Shown: positions 99-38,072 of the stretch, one piece after another
Position numbering within the stretch: the first letter of the stretch is position 1
Layout of the letters: each line of letters opens with the position of its first letter
From: Diplonema papillatum
Taxonomy: Eukaryota > Euglenozoa > Diplonemea > Diplonemida > Diplonemidae
Direction of reading: 5' to 3'
DNA length: 64,000 nucleotides
Assembly: GCA_030068145.1 (NCBI GenBank)
Contig: JAPJBO010000447.1
Coordinates: 1-64,000 of the forward strand
Notes under the pieces: model-generated
Databases searched by the model: none
Seen by the model: the letters and a program-made list of their open reading frames with translations, nothing else
What the model was told of the DNA's origin: nothing
Translations under genes and position numbers: made by a program

Positions 99-3000
99 AT
101 GAAACATGCAGCAGCGGTTTGCTTCCTCTTGCTGACGCCTGTCGTCCGCGCCCAATCATGCACAGATGATACAGTATGCAGCGGAGGAGACTGCGACGGC
201 GGGTTCTGCACAGTGCCAGACGTCCGGTGGAGCCACGGCTTTCGCGCCCTTGACTTCTTCGTTGTTAGGTCTCCCACGACAAACGTCGACAGCGCCGCCC
301 GAAGGTGTGGGTACATCGCACCGAACGGCAGGCTCGCACGCGTGTTGTACGAAGTCGAGGACATCCGCTTGATGACTTTATTCAATGCGCGGCACATTCT
401 CTTGGATGGTTCTGATGCTGCCGAAGAAGGAGTATGGAGGTGGAATGACGGCATCGTGTACTTCAGAAGGGACGGAAACGTCTGTGAACAAACATATTGC
501 GGTTGGGATCTGTCGCGTATTTCTGACCATAGTGGTGTGAGCGGTGAACATTACATGGCATATTTCAGTGGCGTGTGGAATGACGTCACCGATGGCACGT
601 TTCGGTATTTCTGCGAGGTGCCTTGCACGGCGGATTCAGAGTGTGAAGACCCGAACGCAAATGAAATAATGTACTGCTCTGTTCAAGGTCGTTGTGAATA
701 CTTTTTTGTCGATGCTGGACCAAACATCACATTCGCTGTCTCTCAGAATCCAGCCATCCGTGACGGAGCGGATAGTGGCTGCCAGGATTTGACTTACGGA
801 GGAAGGACGGGCCGTCTTGCACGCGTGGTGAACGTCGATGAGGAGTATCGGCTTGTTGCTCTGAAAGGGGGAGTCGACACAGCCGTTTGGATGGATGGAG
901 TTCGATCGGGATCTGGCACCCCGTGGACGTGGAGCTCTGGTGAACACTTTTCGGGGAGCTCCGGTTGTCTGCAGGAGTACTGCAATTGGATCGGGGGTGA
1001 CGCTCCGAGCGATGCAAGCCTTGGCGCCACGGCGGCTTACCTTGTCATGAACACCACCGGTGTTTGGTCACCCGCTGAAAGTGGGGGCGCGTTTACGTAC
1101 TTGTGCGAGTTCCCGTGTACGGGAACAAGTGACTGCGCAGCTGGGGAATGCGATGCTTTAACAGGTCGTTGCCGTGACCCAGAAATCAGGTGGAGCTACC
1201 ATCGCTCGATCAACTTTAGCTTCGTGGGTTCACCTCCTGTTCGATACGACGAAGCGAATTTAAGATGCGGGCACGTTGCAGAAAACGGGAGGTTGGCACG
1301 CGTTCTGTATGAGTCCGAGCATAATCGGCTTTTGGCTCTGGAGACAGACAAGCACATTCAGCTTGACGGCACGGACGAGACCGAAGAAGGCGTTTGGACT
1401 TGGTCAGATGGGACTATATTTTACAAGGTCGGCGTGGGTTGTTTGCAAGCTTTCTGCGCCTGGGACCCTTCCCCAAGCAATACGGGCGGTGTTGAGCACC
1501 ACCTGTCGATGTATTTCACATCGTGGAACGACATAGACGAATCGCGCGGAATCGCGCTGGAGTACTACTGTGAAGTACCGTGCACGGGGGAGTCGGCTTG
1601 CGAGGCGCCAGGAGCAGAAGAGATTGTTCACTGTTCGAGTCAGGGACGCTGCGAGTATTACGCAGTCGGCATCGACGCTTCGATTGTTTACGCTTTCTCA
1701 GAAAACCCAGCCATTCAAGCCGGTGCCTCAAGCGCCTGTTCTGAGGTGGTGTACGACGGTCGCAGTGGGCGTCTAGCTCGTGTGACGAGCAGTGCCGAGG
1801 CAGTTCGTGTTGCATCTTTGACTGGTGGAACTGCGACGTGGACGGATGGCACAGGATTGGCGGGAACGTGGACATGGTCGGATGGGAGCGTCTATTGGGA
1901 CGGCAGCTGCCAGCAACTGTTCTGCAACTGGGCCTCTGGTCAGCCGGACAGCAGTAGCCACGCCGGCTTGAACGGTGCCGGCGAGTGGGTAGGTGTGGAC
2001 AACCTCGTTGCTCAAAGATACCTGTGTGAGTTTCCCTGTGCGGGCGATCATGATTGTGGCGGCGGGCTCTGCACCGTATCAACTGGCCGCTGCACTGAGG
2101 CCAATATTACGTGGGACCGCGCGCGCTCGATTGACTTCTTTTTCGTTTCGTCGCCAACCGTCGCTCGGGCTGAAGGGCACCAGTGGTGTGCGCATGTCGC
2201 GCCGCACGCCCGGCTGGCGCGCATTGTATACGAATCGGAAAACACGCGCCTGTTGGCTTTGAATGAAAGCAAGATAATTCAGTGTGATGGCACCGACGAA
2301 GCTACGGCAGGTGAGTGGGTGTGGTCGGATGGAACTGTGTTTTATCAGGATGGTGTTGGATGCTTGCAGACATTCTGCGGCTGGCAACAGATTCCGGACA
2401 GCACGAACGGCGAGCACTTTTTGTCTTATAGCTTCGCCGTGTGGAACAGCTTCAATCCTGCGCTACAAGGTGCACAGCCGTATTATTGTGAAGTGCCTTG
2501 CACATCAGCTGCAGATTGTCAGACGGCTGGCGCAAATGAAATAGTGCAGTGCTCCGATCAAGGACGTTGCCATTACTACAACTTCAGTCCCGCAAGTGAT
2601 ATTTATTTTGCTGTGTCAGACTATCCGGCGTTTCCTGCAGAAGCCAAGTCAAAGTGCGAGTCCTTAACCTTGAACGGCCGAGCAGGCCGGCTGGCCCGCG
2701 TCGTGAGCGCAGAAGAGGCAGCTCGCCTAGTAGCTATGAGAAGCCTCAATTCTACATCGATAATGGATGGAAGCGTCTCGGGTGGCACTTGGTCTTGGTC
2801 CGGCGGTACTCCGTTCTGGGACGTGGGTGCCTGCCAGCAGGCGTACTGTGATTGGGACGCTGGCGCCCCAAGTTCGAACACTTTCGTCGGATTGACCTCC
2901 ACAGGAGCTTGGGTAGATGTTGCTGGCGACTCACCCCACACCTTCCTGTGCGAGTTTCCATGCACAGCGAACACGGACTGTGCCGGCACCACGTGCGATT

Positions 3001-6000
3001 TGGCTACTGGGCGTTGCACAACGTCGATCTTCTGGAGCTACGACCGGAGCATTGATTATTTCTACGTTGAGTCGCCGACTGCCACCTGGCATGATGCCTA
3101 TGATATGTGCGGGTTTCTGATGCCTCGTGGGAGGCTTGCTCGCGTTGTACGCCGCAGTGAGAGCGAGCGGATTTTTGTGTTGCAGAAAGGTCCGTATATA
3201 TATTTGGACGGCGTCTCGGCTTCACCAGGTATCTGGACCTGGTCTGACAATACGGTTATCTGGAACCATGGGTGCTTGCAGGCGTACTGCGGAAACTTCG
3301 CTCCCGCGGATGACACCGACCACTTATCCTACTACTACGGTGTGTGGTGGGGTATCAAAGCAGCAACACAAGGGCCAGGAAGGTACTATTGTGAGGTGCC
3401 CTGCATAGCAGCATCCGATTGCGAGAACCCAGGCGTTGACGAGATTGTTAGCTGCTCGAACTACGGCCGCTGCGAGTATTTCAAAATGGATGTCGGTGAA
3501 GACATCACCTTCGCTGTTTCGGTAGTCGGCGATGAACTCCCGGCCATTAGCGCGCGCCTTTGCTCTGATCTGATGTACAACGGCAGAGCTGGTCGTCTCG
3601 CTCGGCCCATGAGCGCCGATGAAAACGATCGTTTGCAAGGATCGGCAATCCATGCATATACACTGATAGACGGCGTGGGTGCAGGAGACAGCGTGCAATA
3701 CCGTGACGGTACTGTTATTCACAAGGCTGGCTGCCAAGTGTCGTACTGCAATTTCAGGAACAGCGTTGGTAACAGCGGGGTCCTCGTTCTGAAACTTACG
3801 GATGGAATGTGGAGGGAGTACAGTGTCACTACCGAGGCAGGATTTTTCTGCGAGTTTCCGTGCATGAAAGACTCTGATTGTGCGTCGGGCGTCTGCTTTG
3901 TCGCCACTGGGCGATGTTCGTATTCGACAAATGCGCCGCCAACAAGTGTTCCCTCGCTTGCGCCTTCTACACTAGCACCCACTGTGGCACCTCCTACAAC
4001 GGTACCTCGGACAAAAGCACCTCTCACAACAGCACCATCAACCCTAGCACCACATACTATGTCACCTCCAACAACAGCACCGTTGACGATAGCACCTCCA
4101 ACACTAGCACCACAAACTACGTCACCTTCAACAACAGCACCACCCACGATAGCACCTCTAACACCAGCACCACAGACATCAGCACCATTGACGGTAGCAC
4201 CTCCAACACGAGCACCACATACTACGTCACCTCCAACAACAGCACCGTTGACGATAGCACCTCCAACTCCAGCACCACAAACTACATCACCTCCAACAAC
4301 AGCACCACAAACTACATCACCTCCAACAACAGCACCACCCACAATAGCACCTCTAACACCAGCACCACAGACAACAGCACCATTGACGATAACACCTCCA
4401 ACACTAGCACCACATACTACGTCACCTCCAACAACAGCACCTTTGACGATAGCACCTCCAACTCCGGCACCACAAACTACATCACCTCCAACAACAGCAC
4501 CACCCACAATAGCACCTCGAACACCAGCACCACAGACAACAGCACCATTGACGATAACACCTCCAACACTAGCACCACATACTACGTCACCTCCAACAAC
4601 AGCACCACAGACAATGGCACCTCTAACACCGGCACCACAGACGACAGCACCTTTGACGATAGCGCCTCCAACTCCAGCACCAAAAACTACGTCGCCTCCA
4701 ACAACAGCACCACCGACAATAGCACCTCTAACACCTGCACCACAGACAACAGCACCATTGACGATAGCACCTCCAACACTAGCACCACATACTACGTCAC
4801 CTCCAACAATAGCACCTCTAACACTAGCACCGCAAATTACGTCATCTCCAACATCAGCACCACAGACAGCATCACCGATGACAATGTCGCCTCGGACAAG
4901 AGCACCACCGACGATACCACCTTCAACATTAGCGCAGACAGCATCACCTTCAACATCAGCACCACCAGCAAGAGTGCCTCTAACATCTGTACCAACGACA
5001 GGAGCACCTCCAACGTTAGGACCGCAGATATCATCATCACCAACATCAGCACCACCGACGATAGCACCTCCGACATCAGCACCATCCACAACATCACCTC
5101 CAACAATAGCACCGGCAAGCATACCTTCAACGTTTGCACCATCAGCTGTACCTCCAACATCAGCAGCTCCAGCAATAGCACCTCCAACAACAGCACCACG
5201 GACAATAGCACCTCCAACGTCAGCACCACAGACAATAACACCTACATCAGCACTACCCACGATGCCACCTCCGACATCAGCACCACCCACAACAGCACCA
5301 CCAGCAGTACCTGCAACGTCAACAGCACCGACGATAGCGCCTCCAACATCAGCACCACAGACAACATCACCTTCTACATCAGCACCCACAACAACACCTC
5401 CAACAGTAGCGCCGGCAGTACTACCGTCAACCTTTGCACCAGCCGTACCGGCACCGTCAACAACACCAATAATATCACCTCCTACATCAACACCAACAGT
5501 AGCGCCTCCAACATCAGCACCACAGACAACATCACCTCCTACGTCAGCACCACCAACAATACCACCTCCGACATCAGCACCACCCACAACAGTACCGCCG
5601 ACCGTAGCACCGGCAATAAAACCGTTTACATTTGCACCATCAGCATTACCTGCAACGTCTGGAGCACCTGTAATCCCAACACTCACACCACCAGTACCGG
5701 CATCGTCAACAACACCAACATCATCACCTCCTACATCAGCACTACCTACAGTAGCGCCCCCAACATCAGCACCACAGACAACATCACCTTCTACATCAGC
5801 ACCGCCTACAATCGCGCCTCCTACATCAGCACCACAGACAGCATCACCTCCTACGTCAGCACCACCAGCAATACCACCTCCAACAACAGCACCACCCACA
5901 ACAGTACCGCCCACCGTAGCACCGGCAATAATACCGTTTACATTTGTACCACCAGCATTACCTGCAACGTCTGAAGCACCTGTAATCCCAACATTCGCAC

Positions 6001-8090
6001 CACCAGTACCGGCATCGTCAACAACACCAACAATATCACCTCCGACATCAGTACTACCAACAGTGGTGCCCCAAACATCAGCACCACAGACAACATCACC
6101 TTCTACATCAGCACCGCCTACAATCGCGCCTCCAACATCAGCACCACAGACAGCATCACCTCCTACGTCAGCACCACCAGCAACACCACCTCCAACAACA
6201 GCACCACCCACAACAGTACCGCCCACCGTAGCACCGGTAATACCGTTTACATTTGTACCACCAGCAATACCTGCAACGTCTGAAGCACCTGTAATCCCAA
6301 CATTTGCACCGCCGCCAGAATTAACCTGGGCACCGCCCGCGATCGCACCATCGGCTGGTCCACCGGATCGAACAAAAGCGTATCAACCATTTCAATCATT
6401 CCAACCACAAACTTCCACCCCGTCGCCCTTGTCAACGCAAACGCATGTGCACACACCCTTTCCATCAACATTCCTGCCGACAGAAAATGAAACGCTCTCA
6501 CCGCTGGTACTTGACGCGGCAAGCCACGTAGACAAATCACCTCTTCTTGCATCCGGAGCGGGAAAGAGCGCACTGGGTGTGACTTTGATGTCAGCCGGAG
6601 GTGCCTCCATGGCAGCAGGACGCTTTGTTGTCCTCTCAGGCAGGTGTTTTTACGATGTGAATGATCTTATGCCCATTCTATCACCGACTGGGCTGATGCT
6701 TCCTGGCTCCAATGGCAGACTTTCCGGGTGTATTGTGGGCAGCGTCGGTGTTTTACTTGTAGCCATCTTACTCCATGTAGTAGTTACGCAGAAGTGTGTC
6801 AGAACAGCAATGCGGCCTTTGCTCAAGGTCGTCATAAATACAAGCATGGCTGACAGCCTGGCAAGAGAGGCCATTAGCCTTTCCGCTTGGTCGATTCTGG
6901 TCTTCATAAAGCTTTATCAAAGCTTCAGCATGTGTGGAATGAAGTTGTTGTTGCTCGCGGATGGTATAGAAGAAGCTCTTCTGGGGTTCGTCTCGGTCTT
7001 GAGTGTGTTGGTAGTACCCATTATCGGGTTACGAATTATTCAGTCCATCGTTCCACAAGGCAAGGCCATCTACGTCATTGACCCTGTAGCCAGCCGTTGG
7101 GACTGGATGCTTGGGAAGGGAGAGTGGATCTTTACCAATGAACAGAGATGCGTCGAACGCCATAGCAGCCTCTTCCGAGCGTTCGTTCCAGAGGCGGTGT
7201 TCTTCTTGTTCATATTTGAATGCTTCCTGGTTGTATGCTTCGCTGTCATCACCAGTGTAGAAGCCGTTACTTGGGTCCAGTGCGGATACAAGAAAATGGC
7301 ACTCTTGACGGCCCAGCTTTTGCACTTGTCGCAAGTGGTGGTGCGAAAGCCGCATAGGCAGCCATTTGTGGAGGTAGTGGAGCTCATTGTCGCAGTCTTC
7401 GTGTGCATCGGGCTCAGCCTGGCTGCAGGATCATGTTTTGCTGAGGATCCGCTTACTCACTGGGGAAGTGCCGCAAGCAATTACATCATGTTGTTTGCAG
7501 CAGTCGCCCTCCTGTTCAGAGTCATTGTCAGTGGAATTGGAACTGCGTTCGTAGTTTTCACCGGTCGGCGGTCCAGATTAGCTTGTTCTCTCAAACGAAG
7601 CTGCAACTTGGAGTCGGCCATCTCAACCTCACTTGATGCGCAGGAAGATGCCTCAGGCAAAGAACCGAACTTGGCTTCTCTTCTCGTGTTTCCGGACAAC
7701 GTCTCGTCTTCGTCTTCTCTGATGAAAACTTGCGACTCAACAGCCTCCGTTATCAAGCTTGGGGCACTGGGCCAGGAGCCCAGCACAGGGAGTAATCTGG
7801 GCTCAAGCGTTTCAAGCTTCCAGGCTTCTTGTCAAGTCAAGAGGTTGACGAGCATCTTACCGTCAGCTCCCCAGACTGCAGGACGGCAGAAGCGGCACCG
7901 GACAAAGCGCAATAACAAATGTACACCAAGCACTTCAAGCGCTTCACACTTCTTGGTTCCCCAGCAGCAAGAAGGGCACCCGAACACGTGCAGCTCGGCG
8001 ACCGCGGCTCTGAGTACCGAAAGACAGGATCAGCTGTCATTGGCACCGCGTGACAGACCCAGTACCAGATCCTCAAGCACCCACTCGTAG
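99..8090 (+). CDS. L1: eight-CTLD lectin, Thr/Pro stalk, polytopic membrane protein
   Basis: Predicted 2,663-residue cell-surface protein. The start is the ATG at 99, because the same Met is kept in all four copies and begins a clean signal peptide (MKHAAAVCFLLLTPVVRA). An in-frame ATG at 81 is not in frame in the other copies. Residues about 40-1277 hold four A+B pairs of C-type-lectin-like domains of about 150 residues each. Recurring marks are GRLARV, a W-x-DG or LDG core, W-x-W-S-x-G, a C-x4-C-x-W segment and a closing C-E-x-P-C. Residues about 1277-2075 are a mucin-like Thr/Pro/Ser/Ala stalk. About seven hydrophobic segments follow (roughly 2207-2487), then a Ser-rich cytoplasmic tail of about 175 residues. 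Glycan binding or adhesion is inferred from the CTLD family, and I do not recognise the membrane domain. No introns are needed. The other copies have one A+B pair, so L1 was internally expanded. Confidence 0.85.
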   Translation: MKHAAAVCFLLLTPVVRAQSCTDDTVCSGGDCDGGFCTVPDVRWSHGFRALDFFVVRSPTTNVDSAARRCGYIAPNGRLARVLYEVEDIRLMTLFNARHILLDGSDAAEEGVWRWNDGIVYFRRDGNVCEQTYCGWDLSRISDHSGVSGEHYMAYFSGVWNDVTDGTFRYFCEVPCTADSECEDPNANEIMYCSVQGRCEYFFVDAGPNITFAVSQNPAIRDGADSGCQDLTYGGRTGRLARVVNVDEEYRLVALKGGVDTAVWMDGVRSGSGTPWTWSSGEHFSGSSGCLQEYCNWIGGDAPSDASLGATAAYLVMNTTGVWSPAESGGAFTYLCEFPCTGTSDCAAGECDALTGRCRDPEIRWSYHRSINFSFVGSPPVRYDEANLRCGHVAENGRLARVLYESEHNRLLALETDKHIQLDGTDETEEGVWTWSDGTIFYKVGVGCLQAFCAWDPSPSNTGGVEHHLSMYFTSWNDIDESRGIALEYYCEVPCTGESACEAPGAEEIVHCSSQGRCEYYAVGIDASIVYAFSENPAIQAGASSACSEVVYDGRSGRLARVTSSAEAVRVASLTGGTATWTDGTGLAGTWTWSDGSVYWDGSCQQLFCNWASGQPDSSSHAGLNGAGEWVGVDNLVAQRYLCEFPCAGDHDCGGGLCTVSTGRCTEANITWDRARSIDFFFVSSPTVARAEGHQWCAHVAPHARLARIVYESENTRLLALNESKIIQCDGTDEATAGEWVWSDGTVFYQDGVGCLQTFCGWQQIPDSTNGEHFLSYSFAVWNSFNPALQGAQPYYCEVPCTSAADCQTAGANEIVQCSDQGRCHYYNFSPASDIYFAVSDYPAFPAEAKSKCESLTLNGRAGRLARVVSAEEAARLVAMRSLNSTSIMDGSVSGGTWSWSGGTPFWDVGACQQAYCDWDAGAPSSNTFVGLTSTGAWVDVAGDSPHTFLCEFPCTANTDCAGTTCDLATGRCTTSIFWSYDRSIDYFYVESPTATWHDAYDMCGFLMPRGRLARVVRRSESERIFVLQKGPYIYLDGVSASPGIWTWSDNTVIWNHGCLQAYCGNFAPADDTDHLSYYYGVWWGIKAATQGPGRYYCEVPCIAASDCENPGVDEIVSCSNYGRCEYFKMDVGEDITFAVSVVGDELPAISARLCSDLMYNGRAGRLARPMSADENDRLQGSAIHAYTLIDGVGAGDSVQYRDGTVIHKAGCQVSYCNFRNSVGNSGVLVLKLTDGMWREYSVTTEAGFFCEFPCMKDSDCASGVCFVATGRCSYSTNAPPTSVPSLAPSTLAPTVAPPTTVPRTKAPLTTAPSTLAPHTMSPPTTAPLTIAPPTLAPQTTSPSTTAPPTIAPLTPAPQTSAPLTVAPPTRAPHTTSPPTTAPLTIAPPTPAPQTTSPPTTAPQTTSPPTTAPPTIAPLTPAPQTTAPLTITPPTLAPHTTSPPTTAPLTIAPPTPAPQTTSPPTTAPPTIAPRTPAPQTTAPLTITPPTLAPHTTSPPTTAPQTMAPLTPAPQTTAPLTIAPPTPAPKTTSPPTTAPPTIAPLTPAPQTTAPLTIAPPTLAPHTTSPPTIAPLTLAPQITSSPTSAPQTASPMTMSPRTRAPPTIPPSTLAQTASPSTSAPPARVPLTSVPTTGAPPTLGPQISSSPTSAPPTIAPPTSAPSTTSPPTIAPASIPSTFAPSAVPPTSAAPAIAPPTTAPRTIAPPTSAPQTITPTSALPTMPPPTSAPPTTAPPAVPATSTAPTIAPPTSAPQTTSPSTSAPTTTPPTVAPAVLPSTFAPAVPAPSTTPIISPPTSTPTVAPPTSAPQTTSPPTSAPPTIPPPTSAPPTTVPPTVAPAIKPFTFAPSALPATSGAPVIPTLTPPVPASSTTPTSSPPTSALPTVAPPTSAPQTTSPSTSAPPTIAPPTSAPQTASPPTSAPPAIPPPTTAPPTTVPPTVAPAIIPFTFVPPALPATSEAPVIPTFAPPVPASSTTPTISPPTSVLPTVVPQTSAPQTTSPSTSAPPTIAPPTSAPQTASPPTSAPPATPPPTTAPPTTVPPTVAPVIPFTFVPPAIPATSEAPVIPTFAPPPELTWAPPAIAPSAGPPDRTKAYQPFQSFQPQTSTPSPLSTQTHVHTPFPSTFLPTENETLSPLVLDAASHVDKSPLLASGAGKSALGVTLMSAGGASMAAGRFVVLSGRCFYDVNDLMPILSPTGLMLPGSNGRLSGCIVGSVGVLLVAILLHVVVTQKCVRTAMRPLLKVVINTSMADSLAREAISLSAWSILVFIKLYQSFSMCGMKLLLLADGIEEALLGFVSVLSVLVVPIIGLRIIQSIVPQGKAIYVIDPVASRWDWMLGKGEWIFTNEQRCVERHSSLFRAFVPEAVFFLFIFECFLVVCFAVITSVEAVTWVQCGYKKMALLTAQLLHLSQVVVRKPHRQPFVEVVELIVAVFVCIGLSLAAGSCFAEDPLTHWGSAASNYIMLFAAVALLFRVIVSGIGTAFVVFTGRRSRLACSLKRSCNLESAISTSLDAQEDASGKEPNLASLLVFPDNVSSSSSLMKTCDSTASVIKLGALGQEPSTGSNLGSSVSSFQASCQVKRLTSILPSAPQTAGRQKRHRTKRNNKCTPSTSSASHFLVPQQQEGHPNTCSSATAALSTERQDQLSLAPRDRPSTRSSSTHS
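3930..6320 (+). repeat. Stalk-coding minisatellite of L1
   Basis: This is a degenerate 15/30-bp tandem repeat encoding T-x-A-P-P-T-type units, the expected O-glycosylated stalk. It lacks stops in several frames and on the minus strand, which creates long spurious reading frames. Equivalent arrays are about 590 bp in L2 (15100-15690), about 140 bp in L3 (27499-27640) and about 290 bp in L4 before the retroelement. Stalk length therefore varies strongly among otherwise similar genes. Confidence 0.9.
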
Positions 8091-12275: not shown

Positions 12276-12382
12276 TTTCCCACGTTGAGCAATGTTGGGA
12301 CGTTGTTACAGCACGTCCAAGGCCAAGGTTTGGAGGTCCCCACTGCAAAACAGACGTATGCAGGTTGTCCCGCTTCAAAAGG

Positions 12383-12780
12383 GACTTCTCAAAAGTTTGT
12401 CGTCCATACAAGGGACTTTTCAAAAGGTTGTCGTCCATACAAGGGACTTTTCAAAGGTTTGTCGTCCATACAAGGGACTTTTCAAAAGGTTGTCGTCCAT
12501 ACAAGGGACTTTTCAAAGGTTTGTCGTCCATACAAGGGACTTTTTGAAAGTACGGCGTCCATATAAGGGTAGGTTCTCCATACAAGGTATTTTTGAACTT
12601 CCGCCGTCCATATAAGGTACCAAAGATGTCTGTCCATACAAGGTCCCTTCTGAGAATGTGTGTGTCCATAATATAAGGGTACTTATTCAGAGTCTTCTGT
12701 CCATACAAGGGCATTTTGCAAAACCTGGTGTCCATACAAAAGGCCCTTTCAGAAACTAGGGAGCCCATACAAAGGTTTAT
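12383..12780 (+). repeat. 31-bp minisatellite GTCGTCCATACAAGGGACTT
   Basis: Units of GTCGTCCATACAAGGGACTT plus TTCAAAAGGTT are near perfect on the left and decay to the right. The array recurs at 30328-30740 before L4. Confidence 0.9.
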
Positions 12781-12829
12781 TCCAAAGGTTCGGCTCCGGA
12801 GAAGGAACTTTGTCCAAAAAAAAACCTTA

Positions 12830-13181
12830 TTTTAGGACGGAAACAACCCGCACCACGTTAAGCACCGCAAGTGCCGCGAAATCCAAGCACCACACTGCGA
12901 GAAAATACATATAAACGCGGACAACAGACCTGTACGGGCTACAAGGCAACCCCTGCTCAACTTGTAGAACGTGAGCCCAAGACTACACTCCACGAAGGAA
13001 TGTACTTGGTGTCGGTCACAAACAGTCCCGGAAATGGCTAGCCATAACCCATAACGAAAGCGTGCACTAAATATACAACCCTTAACCACAGCCCTTTCTT
13101 GCTCTAAGAGAACCCATTCATGAACGGTCACACGGAGACCCTAAAACCTCGGAATTTCAAGCGAACTTTAACTCTAAAAAA
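12830..13181 (+). mobile_element. Truncated tail of retroelement B (copy 1)
   Basis: From about 13000 to the final ACTCTAAAAAA this matches the 3' untranslated end of element B (36827-37031). Shared blocks include GGTGTCGGTCACAA, CGGAGACC, TAAAACCCCGGA and CGAACTT. It is best read as a 5'-truncated copy that kept only the tail. The left boundary is uncertain. Confidence 0.6.
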
Positions 13182-14014
13182 GTTCAGCTCTCCCACCTCC
13201 CTTGACCAACCAGACTCACACCGCAGTCCTGTCTGCAGACACTCAGGTTCCGCGCTGATGACGGTCCGCCTTATGTGTCCGTGGCTTAAAGGACCGAAAC
13301 ACGGCGCAGACGGGACCAGTGCGGTGTTGAGCACATACCCATTCCAAGCACGTTCTTGCAATCCCACCTCCCTTGCCCACGCTCGGTTCCCCGAGATGAG
13401 GCAATCACTCAATACATTCCCTTCCGCTAGACGTGTTCTTACTTCTCCCTTTCTTGGCAGTCTTCGTCAGGGAAAACGCACCTTCAAGTAGCGGGAGAAG
13501 AGACACTTGCAAAAAGTCTCTTCCGCCATCCGAAGGTGCTCCGCCCACTGGAGACACGGCGGAATACGCACCCAAAAAGTATGCGACCTGCAAATGACCT
13601 ACTGAGGGGTGTCTCCCGCTACGTGCAAGTGCCTTGAGCCATTCGAAAGTGTCCCCAGCAAGAAGTGAGACACAACCAGACGACAACGGGATCCCGTAGC
13701 ACCACGCCTGAGGAAACGGTTGTGATACACTCGCGAAGAGTGGTAACACCACCCAGCTGCTTTAGCGGTTCTGCTCACGAAAACACGTCTTTTACACGTG
13801 CGTTGCGAGTTGTTCTTCTGTGTCCAACGTACGACGGTGCAAATCAAGACAGGCGTGGCACCGGGAACAGACACATGCAAACTGTGCTTTGGTCATGTGC
13901 TCCTCTCCCCTTCGTTCCGATTCCTGCCTTGCAAAGGACAAAACGACAATTCCCGGACCTGCAGCAATTTGTTCACCCATTGGACACAGGGAGGGGGATG
14001 GGAAGGTATTCGGT
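13182..14014 (+). promoter_or_regulatory. Upstream and leader region of L2
   Basis: This region is conserved before L3 (25808-26418) and L4 (31129-31962). It carries several GAGACAC or GTGTCTC words and two copies of CCATTCGAA followed by GTGTC, which are candidate regulatory sites. Just before the ATG it has a block of about 190 bases (13798-13989) that is missing from L1 and L3. The block begins GTGCGT and ends CACAG, so it may be a leader intron or a plain indel. Confidence 0.5.
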
Positions 14015-17000: not shown

Positions 17001-17254
17001 AGCCGTCCTGGATTGGGAGTACGCTGGGTTCAAACTGTTCGACCCGGATTCATCAGGGAGCCAAGCCTCTGTCGAGCTTGATATCCCCAGCCACCCCCAC
17101 TGAAAGACCGCCGACGCTGCACGAGACATTGCATGACAGACGTACACCAAGCATTTCAAGCCGTTCGCACTCGGTGGTTGCCGCGGAGCACCTGGACCTA
17201 TACGGCTCGATGAGACGCATCACCCTGCCCGTGGCCTCAAGCACAAGCTTGTAG
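14015..17254 (+). CDS. L2: two-CTLD lectin, stalk, polytopic membrane protein
   Basis: Predicted 1,079-residue paralogue of L1. The start is the conserved ATG of the signal peptide; the frame is open further upstream only because the leader has no stop. One A+B pair of C-type-lectin-like domains spans residues about 40-362, nearly identical to the first pair of L1. The Thr/Pro stalk covers about 363-560 and hydrophobic segments run from about 657 to 940. The last 140 residues, after CSLKRS, form a cytoplasmic tail unrelated to that of L1 and L3 and containing VADVLDVQEDV. The downstream flank also differs from that of L1 and L3. A role as a surface receptor or adhesin is inferred from domain architecture only. 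Confidence 0.85.
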   Translation: MKHAAAVCFLLLTPVVRAQSCTDDTVCSGGDCDGGFCTVPDVRWSHGIRALDFFVVRSPTTNVDSAARRCGDIAPNGRLARVLYEVEDIRLMTLFNARHILLDGSDAAEEGVWRWNDGIVYFRRDGNVCEQAYCGWDLSRITDHSGVSGEHYMSYFSGVWNDVPDGTFWYFCEVPCTADSECEDPNANEIMYCSVQGRCEYFFVDAGPNITFAVSQNPAIRDGADSGCQDLTYGGRTGRLARVVNVDEEYRLVALKGGVDTAVWMDGVRSGSGTPWTWSSGEHFSGSSGCLQEYCNWIGGDAPSDASLGATAVYLVMNTTGVWSPAESGDAFTYLCEFPCTGTSDCAAGECDALTGRCRDPTVAPPTTVPSTSAPSTIAPLTAAPQTTAPPTSAPQTIAPETLAPQTTAPPTSAPQTTAPQTTAPPTSSPPTLAPQTTAPLTLAPQTTAPPTSAPLTTAPQTLAPQTRAPPALAPPTSSPPTLAPQTTAPPTAALPTSSPPTLAPQTTAPLTLAPQTTAPPTSAPLTTAPQTLAPKTTAPRTLAPQTVPPPTSAPSIPITGTPQTHVPTLLPSTFLSLTLSPEALGAAIGKNHSGSPVASNAGQTVLALTLLSGAASSSLSAGRVILVSGRCFDDARDLTLVVSPTRLKLSGSNGSLSGCIVGSVGILLVAMVLRLIVVKLCLGAAMRSLIKFVTKSDGADSLARNAVSLSAWSLVIFLTLYQSFCVCGVRLLLLAEGIEDVLLGSVSVVSVLVMPIIGLRIIQSIVPRGKAIYVIDPVVSRLDWLVGKGEWISVNERCVERHGSLFRPLVPEAVFFSLIFECFLGLCLAVITSIKTKTWTQCGYKKLALLVAQVVHLLQLVLQRPYRQRFVEAMELIVGVFVCTGLSLAAGSCFAEDPLTHWGSTASDNVMLFAAVALLFRVIVCAIGAAVVVSTGRRSRLACSLKRSNSTVADVLDVQEDVANNATLFLMSDTSSGVASYSVMNAWDSSVNGNQPSWIGSTLGSNCSTRIHQGAKPLSSLISPATPTERPPTLHETLHDRRTPSISSRSHSVVAAEHLDLYGSMRRITLPVASSTSL

Positions 17255-24479: not shown

Positions 24480-24879
24480 TCGGAAATTTTCAGATTTTCC
24501 GGATTTTTCGGATTTTGGCCTATTTTCGCCGATTTTGCCAGATTCTGGCCATTTTCGGCCATATTTGCCGATTTTTCCAGATTTTCCAGATTTTGGCAGA
24601 TGTTGGCCATATTTGCGGCCATTTTTGCCGATTTTTCCAGATTTTGACCAATTTTGCCGATTTTTCCAGATTTTGGCAGATTTTGGCCATTCTTGCCGAT
24701 TTTTCCAGATTTTCCCGATTTTGACCATTTTTGGCCATTTTTGCCGATTTTCCAGATTTTGGCCATTTTTGCCCAATTCTGCCGATTCTTCCACATTGTG
24801 GCTATTTTTGCCGATTTTTCCAGATTTTCCAGATTTTGACCATTTTTGGCCATTTTTGCCGATTTTCCAGATTTTGGCC
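24480..24879. repeat. AT-rich GATTTTCCAGATTTTGGCC tandem repeat
   Basis: A degenerate short-period repeat built from GCCGATTTTTCC, AGATTTTGGCC and ATTTTT. It is free of stops in some frames and gives Phe/Pro/Asp-rich or Lys/Asn-rich nonsense proteins. It joins directly to the lectin fragment that follows. Confidence 0.85.
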
Positions 24880-25293
24880 TCGCTTCTCGTGTTTCCGGAC
24901 AACGTCTCGTCTTCGTCTTCTCTGATGAAAACTTGCGACTCAACAGCCTCCGTTATCAAGCTTGGGGCACTGGGCCAGGAGCCCAGCACAGGGAGTAATC
25001 TGGGCTCAAGCGTTTCAAGCTTCCAGGCTTCTTGTCAAGTCAAGAGGTTGACGAGCATCTTACCGTCAGCTCCCCAGACTGCAGGACGGCAGAAGCGGCA
25101 CCGGACAAAGCGCAATAACAAATGTACACCAAGCACTTCAAGCGCTTCACACTTCTTGGTTCCCCAGCAGCAAGAAGGGCACCCGAACACGTGCAGCTCG
25201 GCGACCCCGGCTCTGAGTACCGAAAGACAGGATCAGCTGTCATTGGCACCGCGTGACAGACCCAGTACCAGATCCTCAAGCACCCACTCGTAG
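24880..25293 (+). pseudogene. Orphan 3' fragment of a lectin gene (L1/L3 tail type)
   Basis: From CTTCTCGTGTTTCCGG onwards this matches the last 135 or so codons of L1, including the stop, and continues into the same 3' flank. No ectodomain or membrane part is present, and the left side is the AT-rich repeat. It is a relic of a lost or rearranged copy between L2 and L3. Confidence 0.85.
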
Positions 25294-25767
25294 TTTCCGT
25301 CATGCTCGTGTTGCCTGCTGGCTAGTTTGATCTCGCACGCGGCGAAGCGAGTTCTGCATGGAAGAGAGGTTTGCGCCAAACATGCTCTGACCTTGTGGTG
25401 GCACCAGTGTCTTGTGGGGAGAAAACAAAGAGACGGCAAACGACGGTGCCACGGCATGATTTGGCAGCCGCTGCTAAACGAAAGTGCTCAAGCCGAAAAC
25501 TGTTTTGTACGCGAGTTTGTGCTGGGTCCAAACAACCAACAAGAGCCTCGAAAGGTTCTACTATCGACGAGATACCTTTTGGGGTCTTCGTTGATGCCTG
25601 GAACTCGTGTCGATGAATTGACAGAACTTCACGTGCTGCGGTTGGTAGCCTTCCGCGTGTTCTGCTTCTTCTGCTGGCTTATGCTCAAAAAGAAAGAAAG
25701 GAACGCTAACCCAAACAACTTCCGTCGGTAGAGAAAACTTGCCTAAAGAAATCAACTGCCTTCGGGT
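25294..25767 (+). other. Duplicated 3' flank after the orphan fragment
   Basis: Nearly identical to 8091-8566 and 29278-29750. The match ends at GGGTAGG, where the sequence jumps to a short unique stretch ending in an A run (25797-25807). Confidence 0.75.
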
Positions 25768-26418
25768 AGGCTAGTCTGACAATAGTTGTCGTCGGGGGAA
25801 AAAAAAAGTTCAGCTCTCCCACCTCCCTTGACCAACCAGACTCACACCGCAGTCCTGTCTGCAGACACTGAGGTTCCGCGCTGATGACAGTCCGCCTTAT
25901 GTTTCCGTGGCTTAAAGGACCGAAACACGGTGTTGAGCACATACCCATTCCAAGCACGTTCTTGCAATCCCACCTCCCTTGCCCACGCTCGGTTCCCCGA
26001 GATGAGGCAATTATTCAATACATTCCCTTCCGCTAAACCTGTTCTTACTTCTCCCTTTCTTGGCAGTCTTCGTCAGGGAAAACGCACCTTCAAGTAGCGG
26101 GAGAAGAGACACTTGCAAAAAGTCTCTTCCGCCATTCGAAGGTGTCTCCGCCCACTGGAGACACGGCGGAATACGCACCCAAAAAGTATGCGACCTGCAA
26201 ATGACCTACTGAGGGGTGTCTCCCGCTACGTGCAAGTGTCTTGAGCCATTCGAAAGTGTCCCCAGCAAGAAGTGAGAGACACATCCAGACGACAACGGGA
26301 TCACGCCTGAGGAAACGGTTGTGATACCCTCGCGAAGGGTGGTAACACCACCCACCTGCTTTAGCGGTTCTGCTCACGAAAACACGTCTTTTACAAGTGG
26401 GATGGGAAGGTATTCGGT
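25768..26418 (+). promoter_or_regulatory. Upstream and leader region of L3
   Basis: From 25808 it matches the upstream regions of L2 and L4. The B tail found there is replaced here by about 40 unique bases. An inverted pair, GTGTCTCC (26142-26149) and GGAGACAC (26157-26164), sits inside a set of GAGACAC-like words. CCATTCGAA followed by GTGTC occurs twice. The leader lacks the 190-base block of L2 and L4. Confidence 0.5.
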
Positions 26419-29277
26419 ATGAAACATGCAGCAGCGGTTTGCTTCCTCTTGCTGACGCCTGTCGTCCGCGCCCAATCATGCACAGATGATACAGTATGCA
26501 GCGGAGGAGACTGCGACGGCGGGTTCTGCACAGTGCCAGACGTCCGGTGGAGCCACGGCTTTCGCGCCCTTGACTTCTTCGTTGTTAAGTCTCCCACGAC
26601 AAACGTCGACAGCGCCGCCCGAAGGTGTGGGTACATCGCACCGAACGGCAGGCTCGCACGCGTGTTGTACGAAGTCGAGGACATCCGCTTGATGACTTTA
26701 TTCAATGTGCGGCACATTCTCTTGGATGGTTCTGATGCTGCCGAAGAAGGAGTATGGAGGTGGAATGACGGCATCGTGTACTTCAGAAGGGACGGAAACG
26801 TCTGTGAACAAGCATATTGCGGTTGGGATCTGTCGCGTATTTCTGACCATAGTGGTGTGAGCGGTGAACATTACATGGCATATTTCAGTGGCGTGTGGAA
26901 TGACGTCCCCGATGGCACCTTTTGGTATTTCTGCGAGGTGCCTTGCACGGCGGATTCAGAGTGTGAAGTCCCGAACGCAAATGAAATAATGTACTGCTCT
27001 GTTCAAGGTCGTTGTGAATACTTTTTTGTCGATGCTGGACCAAACATCACATTCGCTGTCTCTCAGAATCCAGCCATCCGTGACGGAGCGGATAGTGGCT
27101 GCCAGGATTTGACTTACGGAGGAAGGACGGGCCGTCTTGCACGCGTGGTGAACGTCGATGAGGAGTATCGGCTTGTTGCTCTGAAAGGGGGAGTCGACAC
27201 AGCCGTTTGGATGGATGGAGTTCGATCGGGATCTGGCACCCCGTGGACGTGGAGCTCTGGTGAACACTTTTCGGGGAGCTCCGGTTGTCTGCAGGAGTAC
27301 TGCAATTGGATCGGGGGTGACGCTCCGAGCGATGCAAGCCTTGGCGCCACGGCGGCTTACCTTGTCATGAACACCACCGGTGTTTGGTCACCCGCTGAAA
27401 GTGGGGACGCGTTTACGTACTTGTGCGAGTTCCCGTGTACGGGAACAAGTGACTGCGCAGCTGGGGAATGCGATGCTTTAACAGGTCGTTGCCGTGACCC
27501 GACTGTGGCACCTCCTACAACGGTACCTTCGACATCAGCACCATCGACGATAGCACCTCTAACATTAGCACCACAGACAACAGCACCTCCAACATCTGCA
27601 CCGTCAATACCAATCACCGGGACTCCGCAAACGCATGTGCCCACACTTCTCCCATCAACGTTCCTAAGTCTAACGCTCTCACCGCAGGCCCTTGGCGCGG
27701 CGATCGGTAAAAACCATTCAGGGTCTCTTGTTGCATCGAATGCGGGACAGACCGTACTGGCTTTGACTTTGTTGTCGGGAGCGGCTTCCTCATCCTTGTC
27801 AGCAGGGCGTGTTGTTCTGGTCTCGGGCAGGTGTTTTGACGATGCGCGTGATCTTACGCTTGTTGTATCGCCGACTAGGCTGAAGCTTTCTGGCTCCAAC
27901 GGCAGCCTATCCGGGTGTATTGTGGGCAGCGTCGGTATTCTACTTGTGGCGATGGTGCTACGGCTGGTAGTTGTAAAGTTGTGCCTCGGCGCAGCAATGC
28001 GGTCTTTGATCAAGTTCGTCACGAAATCGGATGGGGCTGACAGCCTGGCAAGAAATGCAGTCAGCCTTTCCGCTTGGTCGTTGGTGATCTTCTTGACATT
28101 GTATCAAAGCTTCTGCGTGTGTGGCGTGAGGTTGTTGTTGCTCGCGGAAGGTATTGAAGATGTCCTTCTGGGGTCCGTCTCGGTTGTGAGTGTGTTGGTA
28201 ATGCCCATTATCGGGTTACGGATCATTCAGTCCATCGTTCCACGAGGCAAGGCCATCTACGTCATCGATCCCGTTGTCAGCCGTTTGGACTGGCTAATTG
28301 GGAAGGGGGAATGGATCTCTGTCAATGAGCGATGCGTCGAACACCATGGCAGCCTCTTCCGACCGTTCGTTCCTGAGGCGGTGTTTTTCTCACTCATATT
28401 TGAATGCTTTCTGGGTTTGTGCTTGGCTGTCATCACCGGTATAAAAACCAAGACTTGGACCCAGTGCGGATACAAGAAGCTGGCACTCTTGGTGGCTCAG
28501 GTTTTACACTTGTCGCAAGTGGTGGTGCAAAGGCCCTACAGGCAGCGATTTGTGGGGGCAATGGAGCTCATCGTTGGAGTTTTCGTGTGCACAGGGCTCA
28601 GCCTGGCTGCAGGATCATGTTTTGCTGAGGATCCGCCTACTCACTGGGGAAGTACCGCAAGCGACAACGTCATGTTGTTTGCGGCGGTCGCCCTCCTGTT
28701 CAGGGTCATCGTGTGTGCGATTGGAGCTGCGGTGGTAGTTTCCACCGGTCGGCGGTCCAGATTAGCTTGTTCTCTCAAACGAAGCTGCAACTTGGAGTCG
28801 GCCATCTCAACCTCACTTGATGCGCAGGAAGATGCCTCAGGCAAAGAACCGAACTTGGCTTCTCTTCTCGTGTTTCCGGACAACGTCTCGTCTTCGTCTT
28901 CTCTGCTGAAAACTTGCGACTCAACAGCCTCCGTTATCAAGCTTGGGGCACTGGGCCAGGAGCCCAGCACAGGGAGTAATCTGGGCTCAAGCGTTTCAAG
29001 CTTCCAGGCTTCTTTTTGTCAAGTCAAGAGGTTGACGAGCATCTTACCGTCAGCTCCCCAGACTGCAGGACGGCAGAAGCGGCACCGGAAAAAGCGCAAT
29101 AACAAATGTACACCAAGCACTTCAAGCGCTTCACACTTCTTGGTTCCCCAGCAGCAAGAAGGGCACCCGAACACGTGCAGCTCGGCGACCCCGGCTCTGA
29201 GTACCGAAAGACAGGATCAGCTGTCATTGGCACCGCGTGACAGACCCAGTACCAGATCCTCAAGCACCCACTCGTAG
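26419..29277 (+). CDS. L3: two-CTLD lectin with very short stalk
   Basis: Predicted 952-residue paralogue. It has the signal peptide MKHAAAVCFLLLTPVVRA, then an A+B CTLD pair (residues about 40-360), a stalk of only about 45 residues, hydrophobic segments from about 497 to 780, and the L1-type Ser-rich tail. It is a mosaic. Most of the membrane region follows L2, a short tract around 28500-28535 follows L1 (HLSQVVV), and from about 28775 to the stop and beyond it follows L1. One extra codon in the tail (near 29013) separates it from L1. This indicates recombination or gene conversion among the copies. Function is predicted as for L1. Confidence 0.85.
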   Translation: MKHAAAVCFLLLTPVVRAQSCTDDTVCSGGDCDGGFCTVPDVRWSHGFRALDFFVVKSPTTNVDSAARRCGYIAPNGRLARVLYEVEDIRLMTLFNVRHILLDGSDAAEEGVWRWNDGIVYFRRDGNVCEQAYCGWDLSRISDHSGVSGEHYMAYFSGVWNDVPDGTFWYFCEVPCTADSECEVPNANEIMYCSVQGRCEYFFVDAGPNITFAVSQNPAIRDGADSGCQDLTYGGRTGRLARVVNVDEEYRLVALKGGVDTAVWMDGVRSGSGTPWTWSSGEHFSGSSGCLQEYCNWIGGDAPSDASLGATAAYLVMNTTGVWSPAESGDAFTYLCEFPCTGTSDCAAGECDALTGRCRDPTVAPPTTVPSTSAPSTIAPLTLAPQTTAPPTSAPSIPITGTPQTHVPTLLPSTFLSLTLSPQALGAAIGKNHSGSLVASNAGQTVLALTLLSGAASSSLSAGRVVLVSGRCFDDARDLTLVVSPTRLKLSGSNGSLSGCIVGSVGILLVAMVLRLVVVKLCLGAAMRSLIKFVTKSDGADSLARNAVSLSAWSLVIFLTLYQSFCVCGVRLLLLAEGIEDVLLGSVSVVSVLVMPIIGLRIIQSIVPRGKAIYVIDPVVSRLDWLIGKGEWISVNERCVEHHGSLFRPFVPEAVFFSLIFECFLGLCLAVITGIKTKTWTQCGYKKLALLVAQVLHLSQVVVQRPYRQRFVGAMELIVGVFVCTGLSLAAGSCFAEDPPTHWGSTASDNVMLFAAVALLFRVIVCAIGAAVVVSTGRRSRLACSLKRSCNLESAISTSLDAQEDASGKEPNLASLLVFPDNVSSSSSLLKTCDSTASVIKLGALGQEPSTGSNLGSSVSSFQASFCQVKRLTSILPSAPQTAGRQKRHRKKRNNKCTPSTSSASHFLVPQQQEGHPNTCSSATPALSTERQDQLSLAPRDRPSTRSSSTHS

Positions 29278-30740: not shown

Positions 30741-30777
30741 GCTCCGGAGAAGGAACTTTGTCCAAAAAAAACCTTAT

Positions 30778-31128
30778 TTTAGGACGGAAACAACCCGCAC
30801 CACGTGAAGCACCGCAAGTGCCGCGAAATCCAAGCACCACACTGCGAGAAAATACATATAAACGCGGACAACAGACCGGTACGGGCTACAAGGCAACCCC
30901 TGCTCAACTTGTAGAACGTGGGCCCAAGACTACACTCCACGAAGGAATGTACTTGGTGTCGGTCACAAACAGTCCCGGAAATGGCTAGCCATAACCCATA
31001 ACGAAAGCGTGCACTAAATATACAACCCTTAACCACAGCCCTTTCTTGCTCTAAGAGAACCCATTCATGAACGGTCACACGGAGACCCTAAAACCCCGGA
31101 ATTTCAAGCGAACTTTAACTCTAAAAAA
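30778..31128 (+). mobile_element. Truncated tail of retroelement B (copy 2)
   Basis: Near-identical to 12830-13181. It was carried by the segmental duplication and is not an independent insertion. Confidence 0.6.
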
Positions 31129-31962: not shown

Positions 31963-34900
31963 ATGAAACATGCAGCAGCGGTTTGCTTCCTCTTGCTGAC
32001 GCCTATCGTCCGCACCCAATCATGCACAGACGATACAGTATGCTGCGGAGGAGACTGCGACGGCGGGTTCTGCACAGTGCCAGACGTCCGGTGGAGCCAC
32101 GGCATTCGCGCCCTTGACTTCTTCGTTGTTAGGTCTCCCACGACAAACGTCGACAGCGCCGCCCGAAGGTGTGGGTACATCGCACCGAACGGCAGGCTCG
32201 CACGCGTGTTGCACGAAGTCGAGGATATCCGCTTGATGACTTTATTCAATGCGCGGCACATTCTCTTGGATAGTTCTGATGCTGCCGAAGAAGGAGTATG
32301 GAGGTGGAATGACGGCATCGTGTACTTCAGAAGGGACGGAAACGTCTGTGAACAAGCATATTGCGGTTGGGATCTGTCGCGTATTTCTGACCATAGTGGT
32401 GTGAGCGGTGAACATTACATGGCATATTTCAGTGGCGTGTGGAATGACGTCCCCGATGGCACCTTTTGGTATTTCTGCGAGGTGCCTTGCACGGCGGATT
32501 CAGAGTGTGAAGTCCCGAACGCAAATGAAATAATGTACTGCTCTGTTCAAGGTCGTTGTGAATACTTTTTTGTCGATGCTGGACCAAACATCACATTCGC
32601 TGTCTCTCAGAATCCAGCCATCCGTGACGGAGCGGATAGTGGCTGCCAGGATTTGACTTACGGAGGAAGGACGGGCCGTCTTGCACGCGTGGTGAACGTC
32701 GATGAGGAGTATCGGCTTGTTGCTCTGAAAGGGGGAGTCGACACAGCCGTTTGGATGGATGGAGTTCGATCGGGATCTGGCACCCCGTGGACGTGGAGCT
32801 CTGGTGAACACTTTTCGGGGAGCTCCGGTTGTCTGCAGGAGTACTGCAATTGGATCGGGGGTGACGCTCCGAGCGATGCAAGCCTTGGCGCCACGGCGGC
32901 TTACCTTGTCATGAACACCACCGGTGTTTGGTCACCCGCTGAAAGTGGGGACGCGTTTACGTACTTGTGCGAGTTCCCGTGTACGGGAACAAGTGACTGC
33001 GCAGCTGGGGAATGCGATGCTTTAACAGGCCGTTGCCGTGACCCGACTGTGGCACCTCCTACAACGGTACCTTCGACATCAGCACCATCGACGATAGCAC
33101 CTCTAACAGCTGCACCACAGACAACAGCACCTCCAACATCAGCACCGCAGACGATAGCACCAGAAACACTAGCACCACAGACAACAGCACCTCCAACACA
33201 TGCACCACCGACATCATCACCTGCAACACTAGCACCGCAAACGACAGCACCAGAAACACTAGCACCACAGACAACAGCACCTCCAACATCAGCACCGCAG
33301 ACGACAGCACCACAAACACTAGCACCACAGACAACAATCACGGGGGAGGAGTTGCGAATTCTGCTGAGGAAGAAGCCGAAGAAAAGCGCGTCAGGGGTGG
33401 ATGGCTGGCGTATGGCTGAACTGCGGGAGTTGCCGCACCCCCTGCTGAATGCACTTGCAGACGTCATGAACCTGGTCGAAGCAACTGGAGACTGGCCGGC
33501 AAGCATGACAACTGCGCTGGTGTCGATGGTGCCGAAGGATGAGAGTCAAGACCCGCTGCACACAAGACCGATAACCGTCACATCCGCCGTGTACCGCTTA
33601 TGGGCCTGCCGCAGGCTGGCGGACATAGTTCTGTGGCAAGAGGAATGGATCGAAGAAGGACAGAAAGGCTTTCGACCGGGTCACCGGATCGAGGACGTCT
33701 TGATGGAAATTGGGCTCGAGATGGAGGACGCCTTGTTAGACGGGGAGCCGCTCTACGGTGTGGCGCTGGACTTCCGGAAATGCTTCGACATGGTCCCGCG
33801 AGAGATAGTACTGCGCTTAGCCGAGGACTTAGGATTGCACAATCGGGTTCTCAAGCCGCTGAGGGCTATCTACAGACTGCTCGCGAGACGCTTCAAGCTA
33901 CCATTAGGGGTGGGCAGGGAGTTCAGTGTGACCAACGGTATCCTTCAAGGGTGCCCTGTATCCGTCATACTCATCAATGCCCTGCTGTCGGTAGTGATGA
34001 AAGCGGTCAAGAAAGAAGCGGAGGGTGTGAGTCCAAAGTCATACGCGGACGACGCCACACTGCTGTCCAGGCTGTCGGAGGCCGCCCTGCAAAAGGGAGT
34101 GGACGTAGTAGACGAGTTCTGCACACTCACCGGGATGGAGCTAAACCTCCAGAAGACGGTCGCGTTCTCGACGAGACGTAGGCATCAGTCGACTCTCAAA
34201 CTCCGCAGCGTGGATGCGCTGCTGCGGTTTAGCAAATCCGTCAAGTGCCTCGGGGTCCTAGTCTCGACGGCGAAGAATAGGACGGAAAGGTCCGACTCGG
34301 AGAGGGTGGAGAAGGCGGCTGCCCTGGCGGAAGGCCTCCGCCATGCGCCGTTCCGGTACGAAAAGCGGGTCCGGATTGTGCAGTCGAATGTGCTACCGGC
34401 GGCGCTGTCAGGCTGCTCTTTCGCGCCGGTATCGAAGGTGGCGATGAAACGGCTGACGACGTCGGTGATGGGACTGATCTGGGGTGGATCCAACCCGAAG
34501 CGCGCGAGGGAGATGGTCCTAAACTTTCAGGAGAAGGGCCACCTGACGGATCCCGGTACATGCCTAGCATATAGGGTGACGACAGCGTTTTACGCGGCGT
34601 GCGAGAGGTTGCCACGACTGCTGCCTCTGATGGAGAGCATCCGGGGAAGATACGCCGAGGGGGACCTACCCCTGGGGCCAGTTGGACTGGCGATGAGGAG
34701 CATGGAGGAGTGTGGACACGTATGGGGACCCGGGCCCCTGTCTCGCACGCTGAGGAATGGTGCAACATATGACCCGTTAACCTCGGCACCTTCGAAGAGG
34801 GGACATGAAGTTAGGGCGGACTTGAGGGCGAAGACGTGGTCCCGACTGGTGGCGAGGCGGCCGGGATTTGAGGGCATACAGAGAGCCGACCTGGAGCGGA

Positions 34901-38041: not shown

Positions 38042-38072
38042 GAATGTGCCCTCCCCATTTCTGTCCATTGTC

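Follow-up and report, generated by a model that had tools for sequence, protein, structure and literature searches.

Multi-copy surface proteins with a large ectodomain, about seven transmembrane (TM) segments and an intracellular domain are known from Bodo saltans, where they are called bodonins, and a similar layout has been described for DGF-1 of Trypanosoma cruzi (PMC4728078, PMC9967923). The 394 canonical bodonin genes encode proteins with a mean of seven TM segments and a repetitive ectodomain in which Ser, Thr and Asn abound, and attachment to prey and substrata has been put forward as a speculation on their role (PMC4728078). DGF-1 forms a large family with a huge ectodomain, eight to nine C-terminal TM helices and a cytoplasmic region; its ectodomain has been described as containing EGF-like and integrin-like motifs, pectin-lyase-like parts and lectin binding motifs, not C-type lectin-like domains (CTLDs) (PMC9967923), and it has been linked to bodonin through some bodonin TM domains that resemble DGF-1 (Jackson et al., 2016, PMC4728078). 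In animals, CTLD-bearing proteins can have as many as 11 TM segments; examples are human PKD1 and PKD1L2 and sea urchin SpREJ3, which are defined by GPS, PLAT and mostly REJ and PKD domains (PMC1934368). Here we describe a tandem gene cluster of the diplonemid Diplonema papillatum, at positions 99..33336 of the first 64,000 bases of contig C447 (JAPJBO010000447.1; this stretch is called the window below), in which CTLD heads, stalks and a seven-helix membrane core are joined in single open frames. We favour, with a probability of roughly 0.6, the interpretation that the cluster belongs to a large family of polytopic surface-type glycoproteins of this species, which would serve as swappable adhesins or receptors for the capture of prey or surfaces.

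Anatomy of the cluster

Copy 1 (99..8090; all features of the cluster lie on the plus strand) is a single open frame of 2663 amino acids. A signal peptide, recognised by eye (99-152), is followed by eight CTLD units forming four A-B pairs (153..3863; units 1-4 at 153-626, 627-1118, 1119-1583 and 1584-2039, units 5-8 at 2040-2501, 2502-2963, 2964-3404 and 3405-3863), by a repetitive Thr/Pro-rich stalk of ~840 residues (3930..6460, ends by eye), by a membrane core composed of a juxtamembrane Cys/SPT/GC motif and seven predicted TM segments (6546..7601), and by a Ser/Thr-rich, basic, putatively cytoplasmic tail (7602..8087). Copy 2 (14015..17254, 1079 amino acids) has one CTLD pair (14069-15034), a deletion scar reaching to 15096, a stalk of ~200 amino acids, a seven-TM core (15812-16873) and a tail unlike that of copy 1. 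Copy 3 (26419..29277, 952 amino acids) is a mosaic, with a CTLD pair (26473-27438), the same scar (to 27500), a short stalk of 45-65 residues by eye, a copy 2-like core (27736-28797) and a copy 1-like tail; the tails measure ~130-165 amino acids. Copy 4 (31963..33336) possesses the signal peptide, a CTLD pair (32017-32982), the same scar (to 33044) and, by eye, ~90 residues of a stalk that is cut off by a long interspersed nuclear element (LINE), and it has no membrane core: its frame continues into a LINE-type reverse transcriptase open reading frame (33337..36684; RVT_1, 1.4e-20). An orphan remnant at 24874..25770, consisting of a bare cytoplasmic tail and 3' flank, is 99.7% identical to copy 1 and 99.2% identical to copy 3.

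Copies 1, 2 and 3 are uninterrupted frames in which 8, 2 and 2 CTLD units, respectively, are combined with a common core, and the core profile matches three places in the window, none of them in copy 4. Since lectin, stalk and core share one open frame in all three core-bearing copies, the DNA as read does not place the core in a spliced gene of its own, which answers a doubt raised with the original prediction from the sequence. The limits of that prediction were accurate, as the first ATG stands at 99 and the similarity between copies 4 and 2 ends at 33334, and so was its contrast of eight CTLDs against two. Its four copies do have the signal peptide and lectin pair in common, the membrane core being restricted to three of them, and the orphan tail, a further remnant, was absent from its list; its stalk lengths (about 800, 200, and 45 or fewer residues) are corrected by our estimates by eye (~840, ~200, 45-65 and ~90 residues).

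The end of contig C147 was considered as a further copy and rejected, because 300 of its last bases equal copy 1 with 0 mismatches, the upstream part included. Copies 2-4 differ from this 300-base stretch by 38-44, and C147 stops 62 bp past the lectin match. Most simply, the end of C147 overlaps the start of C447, so that on C447 the cluster would begin with copy 1, whose upstream region would lie on C147.

The membrane core across the genome

The diplonemid spliced leader (SL) occurs 616 times (325 + 291) in the 271-Mb assembly (2,910 contigs) when up to three mismatches are allowed, and the reversed control gave 0, which identifies the genome as that of D. papillatum, a species with an SL exon of 39 bp (PMC10161547). 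The assembly was searched with two cores as queries. The core of copy 2 found 104 places, 103 of them free of stops, and a more distant core found 119, none with stops; their union comprises 128 merged loci on 65 contigs, 113 of which have a core of at least 850 nucleotides, with a median frame of 1231 amino acids. These counts of six-frame matches are lower bounds with haplotype or duplicate contigs still inside the 128, and some contig pairs, for example C2009/C2755, resemble duplicates of one locus. The genome survey that had been proposed as a check therefore extends the family far beyond four copies. CTLDs of this kind share the core-bearing frame, as judged by identity of contig and frame length, at 11 of the 128 loci, three of which are those of the window.

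Eight members with an ectodomain were fetched, a non-random set picked for spread and long frames, four of which are truncated by a limit of the fetched stretch, C-terminally in L032, L036 and L039 and N-terminally in L037. All eight have the ectodomain, the core and at least the start of the tail in one frame, and their heads differ. CTLDs form the head in three, with eight units on C2755, six on C1271 and five on C369, and the C1271 head adds a RicinB_lectin_2 (4.6e-68) and a Laminin_G_3 domain (1.9e-9). The head on C1211 is a CBM6/35 array (CBM_6, 8e-73), with 15 CBM_6 stretches in the search and ~20 by eye; LVIVD-type heads are found at C382:153792 (6.7e-5, above the cut-off) and on C12 (0.0061, under it); on C264 and C45, giant Thr/Pro stalks bear small heads that match nothing in Pfam. 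Thr/Pro-rich stalks, which may be compared with the Ser/Thr-rich glycosylated ectodomain of bodonin, were seen in the copies of the window and among the fetched ectodomains, but C1211 has no long one, so the stalk is not universal. Six further members were taken for their core only, three of them selected for a match to the DGF-1_C profile.

The mean hydropathy of 11 cores (the three of the window and eight relatives) has seven peaks of 1.40-2.38 preceded by a weaker eighth (1.27), where the original prediction had "about seven" segments. Lys plus Arg per 100 amino acids amount to 0.0 in loop 2 and 1.7 in loop 6 versus 10.7 in loop 1, 12.5 in loop 3, 15.5 in loop 5 and 27.2 at the C-terminus, and these values favour a predicted topology with the N-terminus outside, the C-terminus inside, and loops 2 and 6 outside. 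Five positions are invariant among 16 aligned cores: the Gly and Trp of a GEW-like motif and an Arg in loop 3, a Cys in loop 4, and an Arg after the last helix.

Relation to DGF-1, bodonin and other known systems

Among the 16 cores, five match the DGF-1_C profile over 204-245 of its 259 positions, with E-values from 4.2e-7 to 7e-4 (C74, 4.2e-7, alone above the cut-off; C65, 6.2e-6; C382:171000, 1.4e-5; C45, 5e-5; C66, 7e-4). Searched against the whole genome, the profile finds six places, two of them above the cut-off (C74, and one on C103 together with its neighbours); three of the six (C74, C382, C531) fall on core loci, which make up ~0.05% of the genome, and no match was found in any of 14 control genomes. 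These similarities suggest that the core is homologous to DGF-1_C of T. cruzi through intermediates, the link being transitive, not direct, for the copies of the window. The Diplonema proteins would thus be built to work like the bodonin/DGF-1 kind and, by the same transitive chain, may descend with it. With bodonin they have in common the multi-copy state, the large ectodomain, the seven predicted TM segments, the predicted intracellular domain, a free-living euglenozoan host and a proposed role in adhesion; they differ in their lectins, a word absent from the main text of the bodonin paper (PMC4728078), and the relation of bodonin to the core is seen only through the DGF-1_C profile. With DGF-1 they share, besides the profile matches, a multi-copy state, a large ectodomain, several C-terminal TM helices and a cytoplasmic region, the last two by prediction, the difference being an ectodomain described without CTLDs. 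The PKD1 and SpREJ proteins are alike in having CTLDs on multi-pass membrane proteins, and GPS, PLAT, REJ and PKD domains are found neither in the four whole copies (E <= 1) nor in the cores.

Other searches with the core were of little help: a PDB profile search with the 16 cores gave two matches of no use (best E 1.2), and tblastn of the core against phage records, uninformative by design, gave none. In literature searches and the main text of the D. papillatum genome paper, no description was found of lectin ectodomains on this core or of the core in a diplonemid; "lectin", "adhesi" and "bodonin" have 0 occurrences in that main text (PMC10161547), and no paper was found that names both "Diplonema" and "DGF-1". 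The architecture had been called unusual in the original prediction, and this holds only in part: CTLDs on multi-pass proteins are known in animals, and the membrane half is already known from bodonin and DGF-1.

The CTLD heads

The profile search that had been proposed for the lectin region identifies copy 1 clearly (Lectin_C, 4.1e-14, above the cut-off), and the single pairs of copies 2 and 3 score 0.055 and 0.066, both under the cut-off on their own; copy 4 gave no Lectin_C row in this Pfam search of the four copies. The same search of the membrane region left the cores of the window without a meaningful Pfam match. Copies 2-4 are 96.8-97.9% identical to copy 1 in protein over the signal peptide and lectin pair (340 amino acids). 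Within copy 1, A units resemble each other (42-53% identity), as do B units (36-47%), more than A resembles B (24-33%). A profile of the eight units matched solved C-type lectins in PDB, langerin being the closest (3.7e-5), so that the CTLD is common to these proteins and to the animal C-type lectins. Animal C-type lectins are mostly single-pass or soluble. An NCBIfam search with two cores and two CTLD pairs returned no match. An AlphaFold2 model of the CTLD pair reached a mean predicted local distance difference test (pLDDT) score of 45, and the best 50 of its 167 Foldseek matches are all of C-type-lectin type by description, with E >= 0.015, which lends weak, model-based support to the CTLD identity.

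Lectin arrays of the same genome also occur in frames that have no core, with 28, 18, 10 and 4 CTLDs on C159 and with six CTLDs on C1271. In the giant-lectin cluster at C159:178001-248000 (L012-L018), some units have canonical EPN and WND motifs; no match to the seven-TM core is found there, and one frame ends in a single hydrophobic segment. Open frames of 14,039 and 14,784 amino acids with CTLD matches are located at C64 ~385000-413000 and C319 ~156000-169000, respectively. At C425:19755-80973, several frames hold strong CBM_6 matches (to 3e-22), and no core locus was found there by the core queries.

How the copies changed

Copies 2, 3 and 4 lack, at one common junction, a stretch of copy 1 that comprises 2,799 bp (1181..3979), or 933 codons, in frame. 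They track copy 1 through position 1180, which includes the first 20 residues of unit 3, and then continue with the copy 1 stalk from 3980; on the stalk side 27 of the first 30 bases are as in copy 1, with a mismatch at base 3980 itself (C in copy 1, G in the copies), and the left side of the junction closes with ACCC, which on the right side extends to 3980. In the C2755 paralog, whose core is 60% identical to that of copy 1, eight units match those of copy 1 one to one and in order, at 68-88% identity. In a tree of the units, seven of the eight pairs have starred support, unit 6 being unstarred (85/65). By identity, copy 1 units 5-8 find their best partners in units 3-6 of the six-unit gene on C1271, a pairing that is starred in the tree for copy 1 units 6 and 8, stands at 91/90 for unit 5, and is unsettled for unit 7. 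Because the junction is common to copies 2-4 and the units of copy 1 and C2755 pair in order, the sequence comparison identifies the eight-unit head as the older state and the two-unit heads as deletions, and module duplication, by which the family had been proposed to evolve, does not account for the CTLD number.

The cores have a different history. Those of copies 1 and 2 are 69% identical in protein and 81% in DNA, with a ratio of nonsynonymous to synonymous substitution rates (dN/dS) of 0.59 and no stop. As the heads are far more alike than the cores, they would have been homogenised, or copied, after the cores had diverged. In copy 3, the core region 27537-28785 is 97.5% identical to copy 2; in 200-base windows against copy 1 the identity is 76-88% within the core and 95-100% past it, in the tail and 3' flank, and by these comparisons copy 3 is a mosaic of copies 2 and 1 with a switch near the core/tail boundary. 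Further, the 5' half of copy 2 with its flank (12382..15416) recurs at 97.8% identity as the 5' half and flank of copy 4 (30327-33334). Whole-gene tandem duplication, change of stalk length and recombination between copies are supported by these sequence relations, and the deletion junction and the mosaic together offer a concrete picture of how heads are trimmed and parts exchanged.

Possible function and alternative explanations

In the mechanism that we propose, the signal peptide would send a modular head, here made of A-B CTLD pairs, outside the cell, a Thr/Pro-rich and probably mucin-like stalk of very variable length would lift it off the membrane, and the seven-helix core would anchor the protein with its N-terminus out and its Ser/Thr-rich basic tail inside. 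The heads may then attach to glycans or to the surfaces of prey, particles or substrata, and core and tail may couple this binding to the cytoskeleton or to signalling. Change among the copies would come from tandem duplication of whole genes, removal of lectin units by in-frame deletion, altered stalk repeats, recombination close to the border between core and tail, and loss of copies to inserted retroelements. D. papillatum has been suggested to be predatory and cell-wall degrading, and its CBMs are expanded (PMC10161547). Unrelated carbohydrate-binding heads (CTLD, ricin-B, LamG-like, CBM6/35) on one core, in such a host, suggest that glycans are recognised at the cell surface. The anatomy of the adhesion or recognition receptor family envisaged by the original prediction thus holds; surface location and topology are predicted, and we infer glycan binding, prey capture and signalling.

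Several observations count against this interpretation. Introns are present in 41% of D. papillatum genes (PMC10161547), so the frames read in DNA may differ from the mRNAs. The cores of the window have neither a DGF-1_C match nor a meaningful Pfam score; C74, C382:171000 and C65 were chosen because of their genome-wide DGF-1_C match, the others matching in 2 of 13 cases, and three of the six genome-wide places (C65 and two on C103) lie off the loci of the core queries. Loop 4, with 17.6 Lys plus Arg per 100 amino acids, runs contrary to the seven-helix topology, and structure prediction, which had been suggested as a check, gave for the core an unusable AlphaFold2 model (three window copies, pLDDT 34), leaving its fold unproven. 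Calcium-dependent sugar-binding C-type lectins have EPN or QPD together with WND. Copy 1 keeps these calcium and sugar motifs only partly, with QPD in unit 4 alone, WND in units 1 and 3 alone, and both together in none of the eight units; calcium-dependent sugar binding by the units of the window itself is doubtful on these motifs, and since the two motifs are never combined, we class copy 1 as CTLD-type and do not treat it as proven to bind sugar. Some of its units may bind protein or be structural. Recent copies differ by few changes with dN/dS of 0.7-2.9, as expected if some have lost constraint. Lastly, 2 of the 16 cores match the Pfam TRP family (PF06011; 0.0059 and 0.02) over the last helices.

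The alternative that survives best, and to which we grant a substantial minority chance, is that the proteins are pure anchors, that is, adhesive coat glycoproteins without signalling whose core only holds the head in the membrane, a role that has been speculated on for the coats formed by bodonins. The majority of bodonins are believed to have a low abundance, to cover the B. saltans surface and to allow attachment to prey and substrata (PMC4728078), and the tails of copies 1 and 2 have little in common; a seven-helix core maintained over 128 loci exceeds the needs of an anchor, however, and all five invariant positions of the 16 cores lie in loops or past the last helix. The PF06011 matches would suit a TRP-like or polycystin-like cation channel gated by binding at the lectin head, which we regard as improbable: they score 15.9 and 14.2 bits against a cut-off of 28.5, the DGF-1_C matches are stronger and more numerous, no PKD channel, PLAT, GPS or REJ domain is found in the four copies (E <= 1) or the cores, and an N-out/C-in arrangement of seven segments is unfit for a channel with both ends inside. 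Slightly less probable again is that the cluster is a decaying, recently amplified repeat region of tandem relics with few working genes. Such decay is illustrated by copy 4, broken by a LINE, by the orphan tail at 24874-25770, by the surrounding MULE and LINE sequence and by the high dN/dS among recent copies, but three long frames are uninterrupted, the ratio between the cores of copies 1 and 2 is below one (0.59), and the core matches are stop-free in 103 of 104 and 119 of 119 cases. The least probable explanation, a core acting as a glycan-sensing G-protein-coupled receptor (GPCR), would suit the seven predicted segments, the N-out/C-in topology, the Ser/Thr-rich tail and the 4 of 21 genome G-alpha matches that reach the Pfam cut-off with neighbouring frame pieces added, but no GPCR family match appears in the 16 cores (E <= 1), and all 21 G-alpha matches, in frames of 122-906 amino acids, have their main stretch within profile positions 159-262 of 333, which we take to be the part shared with ARF-type GTPases.

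Neighbouring elements of the window

Downstream of copy 4, a second retroelement is represented by a LINE-type reverse transcriptase open reading frame at 37926-41486 (RVT_1, 4.3e-9). Two more large surface-type genes stand in tandem at 44836-47991 and 48977-52462 and are 97.8% identical over 2.9 kb. Both have a PAN_1 match (3.8e-9 and 5.3e-9), and a signal peptide, a short Ala/Pro stalk and one TM segment can be recognised by eye; their tails differ, as do those of the lectin copies. A fragment of a Mutator-like element (MULE) transposase is found at 62917-63669 (8.9e-10), and 140 bp adjoining it recur at 96% upstream of copy 2 (13050-13187) and copy 4 (30997-31134), which suggests that an element of the MULE type may have been involved in the duplication. 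Upstream of the same two copies (11599-12617 and 30327-30570) lie tandem repeats whose unit is ~30 bp, and a degenerate GC-rich tandem array, with 74-82% identity between array copies and long open stretches on the minus strand, occupies 18510-20600 between copies 2 and 3.

Implications for the family

As several of the heads belong to recognisable carbohydrate-binding types, the idea of adhesion or feeding becomes testable. In a bolder scenario, which we put forward tentatively and consider rather unlikely as a whole, more than 100 receptors with one core of bodonin/DGF-1 descent and varied heads (CTLD arrays, ricin-B, CBM6/35, LVIVD propellers) would provide combinatorial glycan sensing for prey choice; the core would signal by a novel route and predate the split of diplonemids and kinetoplastids, and DGF-1, called elusive in its own review (PMC9967923), would be a late offshoot of a feeding receptor. 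The bodonins have already taken the origin of DGF-1 back to a free-living kinetoplastid (PMC4728078), and the presence of this core in a diplonemid, if true, would move that origin further, to the ancestor that diplonemids share with kinetoplastids.

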